A stretch of 64,000 bases of DNA from Natronobacterium texcoconense (GTDB lineage Archaea; Halobacteriota; Halobacteria; Halobacteriales; Natrialbaceae), in contig NZ_FNLC01000001.1 of the NCBI RefSeq assembly GCF_900104065.1, positions 620,001-684,000 of the forward strand. The letters run 5' to 3'. Position numbers and translations under genes: made by a program. The notes under the pieces were generated by a model that ran no database searches, had not been told where the DNA came from, and saw nothing but the letters and a program-made list of their open reading frames with translations. Position 1 is the first letter of the stretch; each line of letters starts with the position of its first letter. Shown here in pieces: positions 28,591 through 31,453 of the stretch.

Positions 28591-29211
28591 CTATCGACCG
28601 ATCGTGTGGAACTCGTCGTTCGGTCGCATGTCCGCGAACATCGCCATCCGGTTGCTCAGGTTGAAGAAGGCCGTCACCGCGGCGATGTCCCAGATCGCTT
28701 CCTCGCTGAAGCCGGCCTCGCGCAGTTTCTCGAGGTCTTCCTCCTCGATTTCCGTCGGTCGTTCAGTGAGTTTCACCGCGACGTCCAGCATCGTCCGGTG
28801 GGCGTCGTTGACGTCCGCGGTCCGGTAGTTCGCGACAAGCTGGTCCGCCAGTTTTGGCGCGTCTGCGTAGATCCGAGCGAGCGCACCGTGAGCGACGTTA
28901 CAGTAGTAACAGTGGTTGACACCCGAAACCGCGACGACGATCATCTCGACCTCCTCGCGCTCGAGCGCGGTGTCCTCGACCAGAGCGTCGTGGTACTGGA
29001 AGAACGCCCGGAAGTGCGACGGTTTGTACGCGAACGCCGAGAACACGTTCGGCGTGAATCCTGCGTCCTCGGTCTCGTCCGCGATCCGCTCCTGGAGGTC
29101 CTCGGGGAGTGTTTCGAAGTCGGGGGCGGGAAAGCGAGTCATCGCGTCGTCCTCGAGTGCTGGCTGCACGACCGGTTCATCCGCGCCGGAATCGTCGTCG
29201 GCGTTTCCCAT
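28591..29211 (-). CDS. AhpD-like peroxidase-related protein
   Basis: A 206-residue alpha-helical protein of the carboxymuconolactone decarboxylase/AhpD superfamily. The redox motif C-x-x-C appears as NHCYYCNVAH, with the neighbouring histidine typical of the family, and the surrounding helices (EEVEMIVVAVSG, HRTMLDVAVKLTE) match peroxidase-related enzymes of the Uxx group. It probably reduces peroxides or organic disulfides with thiol cofactors. An alternative shorter start at MTRFPAPDF (29142) cannot be ruled out. Convergent with gltB; 52 bp downstream of the GIY-YIG gene, so co-transcription with it is possible. Confidence 0.88.
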   Translation of the reverse strand: MGNADDDSGADEPVVQPALEDDAMTRFPAPDFETLPEDLQERIADETEDAGFTPNVFSAFAYKPSHFRAFFQYHDALVEDTALEREEVEMIVVAVSGVNHCYYCNVAHGALARIYADAPKLADQLVANYRTADVNDAHRTMLDVAVKLTERPTEIEEEDLEKLREAGFSEEAIWDIAAVTAFFNLSNRMAMFADMRPNDEFHTIGR

Positions 29212-29263
29212 ACACCTCGTTTTTCGTTCCCGGTAATAATTGGCAGCGAAACGTACTCGAGAT

Positions 29264-29689
29264 TTAGAGGAGATCGGACTCGAGAACGCCGCCCGCTTCC
29301 CGGGCCCCCTCGAGCAGTGCATCGGCGTCACCGTCCGGCGTCTCGAGCAGATGGGCCGAACAGTCACAGTCCGATGCTCCGAACGTGTCGACCGGCTCAC
29401 CGGGGAGTCGGCCAGCCAGTTCGCACTCGCGGTCCTCGTCGGGGAACCGGACAACGGTCTCGAGGGTCGTCGCCGGATGGCCGAGCAGGTAATCGACGTG
29501 CCAGTGTCTGGCGTCGCGGTCGCCGCGTGCGAGTTCCCGGTGGCGATCGACGCGGGCGAACCCACCCGGACCGAACGCACTGCCGACGTAGGCGTAGGTT
29601 CCGGCGGCGAACTCGCGTTCACCGAGTGCGCCGACCTCGATAGTCGAACTGCGACTCACGTCGACGACGAGAACGTAGGTACCGCCCAT
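29264..29689 (-). CDS. GIY-YIG / DUF123-type nuclease-fold protein
   Basis: A 141-residue protein of the DUF123 (GIY-YIG-like) family. The start GTYVLVVDV and the segment GTYAYVGSAFG match the two strands that give the superfamily its name. RHWHVDYLL and the late SDCDCSAHLL are hallmarks of this archaeal group, which is often fused to endonuclease III-type proteins. It may cut or bind branched or damaged DNA, but activity is not established. It lies upstream of the AhpD-like gene on the same strand and may share its transcript. Confidence 0.88.
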   Translation of the reverse strand: MGGTYVLVVDVSRSSTIEVGALGEREFAAGTYAYVGSAFGPGGFARVDRHRELARGDRDARHWHVDYLLGHPATTLETVVRFPDEDRECELAGRLPGEPVDTFGASDCDCSAHLLETPDGDADALLEGAREAGGVLESDLL

Positions 29690-29780: not shown

Positions 29781-31322
29781 TCAGGAGTCGTCGTGCTCTC
29801 TATCGTCCTCGGTACCCGGCGGCCGGTCGTGGACGTGTCGCCGATTACTCATGTCGTCGTCGGAGCCACTACCCCGTCGTTGGTCGCGGTCACCGCTCGA
29901 CTCGTGGCCGGAGTCGCCGGTCCAGTGGCCCTGTTCTGCCCGCTGGCCTCGCTGACGGTACTCGAGGCCGCCGCCGGACTGGGTGTCTTCGCCGTGGCCG
30001 CCCTCCGATCGATCGGATTCGAACTGGTCGGTATCCATTCGACCGGGGCGGTCCCGGCGACTCTCGGTTCGGCCACCCTGTCCGCCATGGTTGCCACTGC
30101 GACCGTGTCGTCCGCCCTGTTCGCTCTGGGCCTGCTGTCGGTGGGTTCGCCGGTCGCGGTAGTGATCGTCTCGGCCGCGAGCGTACTCTTTCCCTCCCCG
30201 GTCGTCGTCCCTGTCGTCGGCTCGACGCGCTCGACTCTTATTGTCTCGCTGGGTGGACTCCTCCCGCCGGCCCTGGCCGCGTCGTTCGTCCGGGAAGCCC
30301 TGACTTCGCTGGTGGCGACCACCCTGGGACTGGCCCTGTCGCGGACGGTTCTCGTGGCGGTCCTGCTGTTCGACCTCGCCGCGCGGCCGTCGCTGTTGCA
30401 TGCCGTGACGCTCGTCTCCTTGCTGTCGGTACTCGCCCTGAGATCTCTCAGTGTCCGTCTGTCTGCCCCGCTGTCCTCGCCGGCGAGGTCCGCCCTGCTG
30501 TCGGCCGCCGGACCGCTCGTCTTCCATGCGCCGGCCCTGCCGTTGGTCATCCTGGTCCCGTCGCTGGCCGCCTCGAGACTGTCGCCGACCGCGACCTGGA
30601 TCCTCGCGGCGACTGCCTCCGCTCTGCAGTGACTGTTGCTCCCGGCCGCCGGTGTCGAACTCTCGCCCTCGACCCTGTTCTTGCCCGCCACGCTGCCTGT
30701 GCTGGGGCTGACCCGGAGCCTGACTGTGTCGCTGCTCTCCCCGCCTCTCGCCGCCGTATTGCTCTCTCCCTTGCTCGCTCTGCTGGCGGCGCTCCTGTCC
30801 ACCCTGTTGACGTCGGCTCTGTCCGCCCTGTTGACGTCGACCCTGGCCACTCTGCTGGCGGCGCTCCTGTCCACCCTGCTGCTGGGTCTGTCTGCCCTGC
30901 TGGTGACTCTCTCGCCCTCGCTGACCGCGTTCGCTACGCATCTGCTGTCCTCGTCGATCGTCGCGCCCGATCTCACTTCGGTCGTCGTGTCGTGCCTCGC
31001 CGCCGTACTCGAGGTTCGCGTCTCGAGCGTCGGTTTCGAATCCGGAGCGATCCTGCTGGGAACGGCTGCCTCCCGATCGACCGCGGCCACCTTCCTGATA
31101 GTCTCTGGGGGGTTGCCCCCCTCGATCTCCGGATCGATGTCGTCGCTCGTCGTGGCCACCCTGTGGCCGTTCGTGGCCACCTCTATCGTAGCCGTCGCCC
31201 GGCTGATTCCAGCCACCTTCCTGCTGCTGACTGCTCTCGCGACGCCGGTCGTCGTGTGCTTCGTAGTCAGTTGCTCGCTCTCGCCCTCGGTCGTCCCGTC
31301 GGTCGTCGTTGTGGTCTCTCAT
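29781..31322 (-). CDS. Arg/Gln/Gly/Asp-rich low-complexity protein
   Basis: A 513-residue reading frame made almost entirely of Arg, Gln, Gly, Asp, Glu, Ser and His, with recurrent blocks such as RRQQGGQERRQQ, RGG and RGQ. No hydrophobic core is apparent, so it should be disordered. The charge balance looks basic to neutral, which is striking in a proteome that is otherwise acidic. RGG-type composition is known from RNA-binding and phase-separating proteins; that role is inference. Because the DNA repeats keep all frames open, the frame choice is supported by length, by hydrophilicity and by the ATG reading MRDHNDDRRD. Overlapping frames on the other strand look hydrophobic and are judged to be mirrors. 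Not recognised as a named family. Confidence 0.65.
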   Translation of the reverse strand: MRDHNDDRRDDRGRERATDYEAHDDRRRESSQQQEGGWNQPGDGYDRGGHERPQGGHDERRHRSGDRGGQPPRDYQEGGRGRSGGSRSQQDRSGFETDARDANLEYGGEARHDDRSEIGRDDRRGQQMRSERGQRGRESHQQGRQTQQQGGQERRQQSGQGRRQQGGQSRRQQGGQERRQQSEQGREQYGGERRGEQRHSQAPGQPQHRQRGGQEQGRGREFDTGGREQQSLQSGGSRREDPGRGRRQSRGGQRRDQDDQRQGRRMEDERSGGRQQGGPRRRGQRGRQTDTERSQGEYRQQGDERHGMQQRRPRGEVEQQDRHENRPRQGQSQGGRHQRSQGFPDERRGQGRREESTQRDNKSRARRADDRDDDRGGKEYARGRDDHYRDRRTHRQQAQSEQGGRHGRSGNHGGQGGRTESRRDRPGRMDTDQFESDRSEGGHGEDTQSGGGLEYRQRGQRAEQGHWTGDSGHESSGDRDQRRGSGSDDDMSNRRHVHDRPPGTEDDREHDDS

Positions 31323-31453
31323 AGTAGGATAGTGTTCGACGCGCTTACGTCGACCGTCGGTTGTCGTCGGCGACACGACCTAGACCGAACGAGGGGTTAA
31401 ATCCAGAGCGTGCGTTCGCTTGCAGCCCCGCCGAACCGAAAACAGTACGTTCG

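Follow-up and report, generated by a model that had tools for sequence, protein, structure and literature searches.

Positions 29781–31322 (minus strand) of the 64,000-nucleotide stretch of Natronobacterium texcoconense DNA analysed here (the window, at its full length) encode a 513-residue member of an apparently undescribed protein family of an already known general kind, motif-bearing disordered proteins. Its members combine nearly invariant short islands with linkers that keep their composition and not their sequence. We tentatively regard them as scaffolds of the sticker-and-spacer type, in which islands may serve for docking, linkers for solubility, and the whole might form a condensate or loose assembly; our confidence in this reading falls slightly short of an even balance.

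Results

Reading frame and composition of the protein

The coding sequence begins with ATG at 31322 and ends with a stop at 29781, while the mechanical open reading frame runs 18 codons beyond this ATG, to a GTG. All five genomes of the genus that were searched keep the frame open, with proteins of 511–557 amino acids starting from the conserved ATG, and every one of the 68 gaps in nucleotide alignments of six homologue pairs is a multiple of three. Disruption of the frame in relatives, which the earlier note had proposed to look for, was therefore not encountered. In the same six pairs dN/dS is 0.23–0.34, substitutions pile up at codon position 3, and the six-frame reading of four pairs gave pN/pS of 0.28–0.44 in the 513-residue frame versus 1.0–2.8 in other frames, with the exception of an antisense frame that shares third positions but is riddled with stops. 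Plus-strand open reading frames of 309, 254 and 694 amino acids do overlap the coding sequence, but the idea that one of them is the true gene and the minus-strand frame is spurious is left with practically no probability, since pN/pS well under 1 without stops and indels that are all multiples of three characterize the minus-strand frame only, its ATG is preceded by a candidate promoter element, and its Gln, Asp, Glu and His codons are chosen as in adjacent genes; with selection acting on this frame and not on the others, the plus-strand frames are by-products. Judged by these patterns of sequence change, the region is a genuine gene, the frame of which is under selection.

Some codon preferences of the gene are peculiar. 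CGA makes up 40% of its Arg codons versus 17% in neighbouring genes, AGT accounts for 32% of Ser codons versus 5%, so codon choice is shifted towards A-containing codons; GC3 is 0.67 (comparison range 0.75–0.87).

The product is rich in Arg, Gln, Gly, Asp and Glu and nearly free of Lys (R 111, G 93, Q 76, D 55, E 45, S 37 and K 2 residues; R 21.6%, G 18.1%, Q 14.8%, D+E 19.5%, S 7.2%, H 4.3%), with 15 aromatic residues out of 513. Dominance of Arg, Gln, Gly and Asp, pointed out in the earlier note, is thus borne out by residue counts, as is the status of an outlier in an acidic proteome: the pI is 10.5, while 36 genes that a simple script called in the window have a median of 4.4; two other called reading frames exceed pI 9, both coding for hydrophobic membrane proteins. 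The designation "basic" holds for the pI (10.52) but not for the charge, which is just +13 (NCPR +0.025) and ranges in 24 family members from −0.02 to +0.07 per residue, being negative in one member; one member has a pI of 6.1. The high pI comes from the high pKa of Arg more than from net charge; by its charge the protein is a near-neutral polyampholyte, not a strongly basic one. RGG blocks, also proposed as a defining feature, do not stand out from composition: there are 5 RGG versus 3.6 expected after composition shuffling, 20 RG versus 20.2, and no di-RGG, that is, the clustering typical of RGG/RG-motif proteins is absent. Arg-rich stretches such as RRQQGGQ are present.

Conserved islands in a disordered chain

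An AlphaFold2 model built with eight homologue rows, an approach weak on induced folding, gave a mean pLDDT of 41.9 with no residue reaching 70. The whole chain is thus apparently disordered according to the model, in accord with the low-complexity disordered protein described in the earlier note and with the lack of a stable fold in motif-repeat scaffolds. Linkers are scarcely alignable between members: at one extreme they are Q-rich, with 25% Q in Halopiger, and at the other R/G-rich, relatives of the genus having 27% R. Islands, by contrast, are nearly invariant across genera; comparison of the window protein with its nearest relative gives a dN of 0.14 for islands and 0.34 for linkers, and a dN/dS of 0.22 and 0.32, respectively. 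Linker composition obeys rules: Lys does not exceed 0.5% (range 0–0.5%), Arg accounts for 14–27% and hydrophobic residues for 6–11%. Depletion of Lys relative to neighbouring genes has a P of about 2e-11, and charges are mixed better than in shuffled sequences in all 26 members analysed (z < 0, about −1 to −4).

All islands are given here in their minus-strand positions. The N-terminus MRDHNDDRRDDRGRER (31275–31322, alignment A2) follows the family consensus M-[NTS]-D-R-[NYH]-D-x-R-R. Island M2, SGFETDARDANLEYGGEARHDDR (residues 93–115, 30978–31046), found by profile A4 in its own genome at 2.9e-15, has the consensus SGFETDAxxEANLEYGGEARHD with the core FETDAxxxNLEYGGEAR; it is present here in one copy and in relatives in 1–3 copies at varying positions, as expected for a docking motif. 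Next come RHSQAPG (residues 198–204, 30711–30731), conserved inside the genus, M3, HGMQQRRPRGEVEQ (residues 306–319, 30366–30407), recognizable as R-x-PRGE in several genera, and M4, RPRQGQSQGGRHQRSQG (residues 326–342, 30297–30347), with the family form GRHQRSQG and with R336, H337 and R339 unchanged across 12 members. M5, QSGGGLEYRQRGQRAEQGHWT (residues 448–468, 29919–29981), has the family form QSGGGLEYRQxGRRSExGDWT, and M6, DDDMSNRRHVHD (residues 488–499, 29826–29861), has the family form DMSNRRHVHE, in which RRHVH is invariant in the 12-member alignment. One more island, RGWLHGLFSRG, is found in most genera and is degenerate in the genus of the window. PDB searches with the islands returned chance-level matches only. 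Conservation of the islands is evidence of constraint, not of docking. The islands, as well as the promoter element, the fixed locus and the family itself, are absent from the earlier note.

Family and its distribution

The homologue search in relatives, suggested earlier, was run and revealed the protein across Natrialbaceae: tblastn detected it in Natrialba, Natrinema, Halopiger, Natronorubrum, Haloterrigena and Natrarchaeobius. Among 391 sampled genomes of the class, a profile of the C-terminal island matched 44, all of Natrialbaceae, and the M2 profile matched 40 Natrialbaceae genomes with 1–3 copies per reading frame. The full-length profile A1 found only 9 of 125 family genomes versus about 45 for the short island profiles A3 and A4, probably because of compositional bias. 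Weak or short members were added by synteny (G013, G083, G122 and G053), and the family totals approximately 45–50 sampled Natrialbaceae genomes, with one locus per genome in each genome checked, at a fixed place beside DUF123 and gltB, and clean absence in the others. The window protein belongs to it by its M2, M4, M5 and M6 islands, its Lys-free composition and its DUF123/gltB surroundings.

Two kinds of variants are worth mentioning. In G118 an 84-residue mini version (L120, 1372–1686, minus strand) has nothing left but the N-terminus, RDESGDWTE and DEDVSNRRHVH, and is a natural internal in-frame deletion. In L115 (1211–3058, plus strand) the linkers have become acidic (DDEEADEDDEDPVSDAE), with RSGGGLEHDQDRLRDESGNWTD retained and RRHVH lost; an acidic variant was among the members found by synteny (G089).

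The 513-residue protein has no Pfam match at 0.01, LEA and WHy included, and no NCBIfam or PHROG match; Pfam was equally silent for a relative. Curated libraries thus miss such genes, all three being without an entry. No relative was found on the plasmids and viral contigs searched, and the test for a proviral protein was negative. Literature searches on archaeal or haloarchaeal condensates, hydrophilins and Arg-rich disorder did not bring up this protein.

The 391 genomes were also scanned at the DNA level for the pattern L-[EQ]-Y-G-G-E-[ASTP]-R. Beyond Natrialbaceae it matched in eight, falling in four sugar kinases and four disordered Q-rich reading frames. The latter belong to one genome of family f6 (G410) and three of f3 (G228, G334 and G387), carry the motif as LEYGGESRHEQ or LQYGGEARH(D/E/G)Q and lie in loci unrelated to that of the family. 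Like the family, L191, L192, L193 and L194 have [LEQ]YGGE[AS]RH within a Gln-rich disordered chain, and L191, L192 and L194 also share its D/R/H-rich N-terminus; unlike the family, these four lack M5 and M6, have another neighbourhood and contain far more Gln; they are possibly distant relatives. Since the M2 core occurs in Q-rich frames of f6 and f3, it is common to disordered proteins of three haloarchaeal families, and common ancestry of the core-bearing proteins seems likely. Gln-rich frames with the YGGE[AS]RH core were recorded at L191 5354–7039 (minus), L192 6334–7311 (plus), L194 3675–4667 (plus) and in L153; L192 and L194 adjoin a 981-residue protein (MSLIERVS...). Matches to LEYGGEPR in f4 and G247 were rejected as relatives, as they lie in sugar kinases. 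These enzymes (L149, L154, L155 and L156), which we take by eye to be 2-keto-3-deoxygluconate-kinase-like, bear nearly the M2-core octapeptide, probably by coincidence.

Genomic locus and promoter region

In most genera the gene stands between a KaiC-like ATPase gene and the genes for a DUF123 protein and a carboxymuconolactone-decarboxylase (CMD)/AhpD-like protein, followed by gltB, which faces back; the KaiC-like gene is preceded by genes for a G1P-dehydrogenase and an epimerase that face away. In the window the position upstream is taken by an MBL-fold gene. The usual downstream neighbour, DUF123, is located at 29264–29689 (minus), 91 bp past the stop, and the CMD/AhpD-like gene follows at 28594–29220 (minus) in the same direction. 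Judging by the short gaps, these two genes (28594–29689, minus) may be co-transcribed with the gene of the disordered protein. The KaiC-like ATPase of other genera, exemplified by L091 (5133–6137, plus), has a CxxC Zn-ribbon-like N-terminus. In G065, G064, G063, G106, G041 and others KaiC-like and DUF123 genes abut, being approximately 75–185 bp apart. The gene of the disordered protein is thus an insertion that a conserved locus can do without, and by this comparison of gene orders it is dispensable over evolutionary time.

Upstream of the gene a 19-bp element TGCAAGCGAACGCACGCTC (31406–31424, minus; consensus TGCAMGCGAACGCACGCTC) is composed of half-repeats GCAMGC and GCACGC 10 bp apart, and is followed by a TATA-like box TTTAA (GGATTTAACC, 31397–31401, minus), identified by its sequence and its aligned position in relatives. 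We infer that transcription may start about 25 nt downstream of TTTAA, leaving a leader of about 50 nt. The consensus TGCAMGCGAACGCACGCTC with at most 4 mismatches per 19 positions, followed by a TTTA box, was found at 21 of the 26 distinct loci with the gene, about 96 to 194 bp before ATG (−96 to −194). The background is low, with 26 matches in 1.29 Mb on both strands, mostly at these very promoters. As a regulon marker the element was unproductive: in four genomes of the genus no copies beyond chance were found elsewhere, and the genome of the window itself yielded no second copy of good quality. Among 13 Natrialbaceae loci lacking the gene it is kept in one (L126, 2843–2861, plus), without the TATA box, and is there likely a fossil. 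Together TGCAMGCGAACGCACGCTC and the TATA-like box are best read as the gene's own promoter region.

Discussion

What such a protein might do can be approached from its two conserved properties, islands and composition. In the tentatively favoured scaffold model one or several folded partners would be bound by the islands, primarily by FETDA...LEYGGEAR, QSGGGLEYRQ...GDWT and RRHVH. The linkers would remain flexible and in solution at molar KCl, a concentration that screens ordinary attraction between charges, and weak non-ionic contacts of Arg and Gln side chains could bring the disordered protein together with its partners in a condensate or a loose assembly. Disordered linker and scaffold proteins with repeated short docking motifs are known from pyrenoids (EPYC1) and carboxysomes (CsoS2). 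The family resembles them in having a long chain without a folded domain, short conserved motifs between low-complexity linkers and one motif, M2, repeated 1–3 times, even if the window protein has a single copy. It differs in having fewer repeats, no known sequence relation, Lys-free and near-neutral composition and haloarchaeal origin; this is a likeness only.

Condensation at high salt has a precedent. Protamine, a polypeptide rich in Arg, phase-separates again near 2.75 M KCl/NaCl via Arg–Arg contacts, while poly-Lys does not (PMC9705477), which by analogy makes a condensate plausible for a family nearly free of Lys. Protamine is a strong polycation, whereas the 513-residue protein is near-neutral with well-mixed charges, and such a composition could equally stay a dissolved coil. 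The scarcity of aromatic stickers (15 in 513 residues) counts against the scaffold model, and since many Natrialbaceae manage without the gene, its role is not a central one.

Another candidate role is that of a stress protectant similar to hydrophilins or LEA proteins: an abundant and very hydrophilic Gly-rich coil, which would shield proteins or retain water under desiccation or salt shock and would need no specific partner. Compositional criteria of hydrophilins (Gly > 6%, GRAVY < −1), which the source paper itself calls insufficient as a definition (PMC4190154), agree with the protein's Gly of 18.1% and GRAVY of −2.46. Preservation of linker composition and not sequence, dispensability of the gene and a dedicated promoter element, which might provide for induced expression, also fit this role. 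For a pure protectant, islands that are near-invariant between genera and a motif recurring in other families are superfluous, and neither LEA, WHy nor any other Pfam domain was matched, which makes this explanation unlikely, though it deserves some weight.

We find it just as doubtful that the protein binds RNA or DNA by its Arg/Gly-rich linkers, as the earlier note proposed. High Arg and Gly, a pI of 10.5 and Arg-rich segments speak for the idea, and in some relatives RG does exceed compositional expectation (50 versus 32 in L008, 43 versus 27 in L010). In common with the RGG/RG RNA binders FUS, nucleolin and SERBP1, the protein has an Arg/Gly-rich disordered sequence, but it lacks their di-RGG and their RRM or other domain (no folded RNA- or DNA-binding domain was matched in Pfam), its RGG and RG occur at composition frequency, and its net charge is near zero. 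Besides, multi-molar salt screens Arg–phosphate contacts.

Still less probable is a local functional module, in which the protein would be a dedicated partner of a neighbouring product, either the KaiC/RAD55-like ATPase or DUF123. The gene order fixed in most genera invites such an interpretation, but G000 and G001, both of which have the disordered protein, gave no KaiC-like match, elsewhere KaiC-like and DUF123 genes do without it, distant relatives in other families adjoin unrelated genes, and the gene has a promoter element of its own.

Halobacteria are predicted to be rich in disorder, which covers 34% of residues (PMC2880407). Disorder alone is therefore unsurprising; what surprises is that selected motifs, a frozen composition and a private promoter occur together. 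In its boldest form, which seems to us a rather unlikely extension of the scaffold model, the family might found a haloarchaeal class of Lys-free, charge-balanced scaffolds, which would condense via Arg/Gln contacts at multi-molar KCl and recruit clients by FETDA...LEYGGEAR. If true, the cytoplasm would possess a condensate system of its own, adapted to very high salt. Rules of protein disorder and phase separation derive mostly from work near 0.15 M salt, and the family offers a natural, evolutionarily replicated test of which interactions (Arg, Gln, Gly, aromatic) continue to organise proteins under charge screening.
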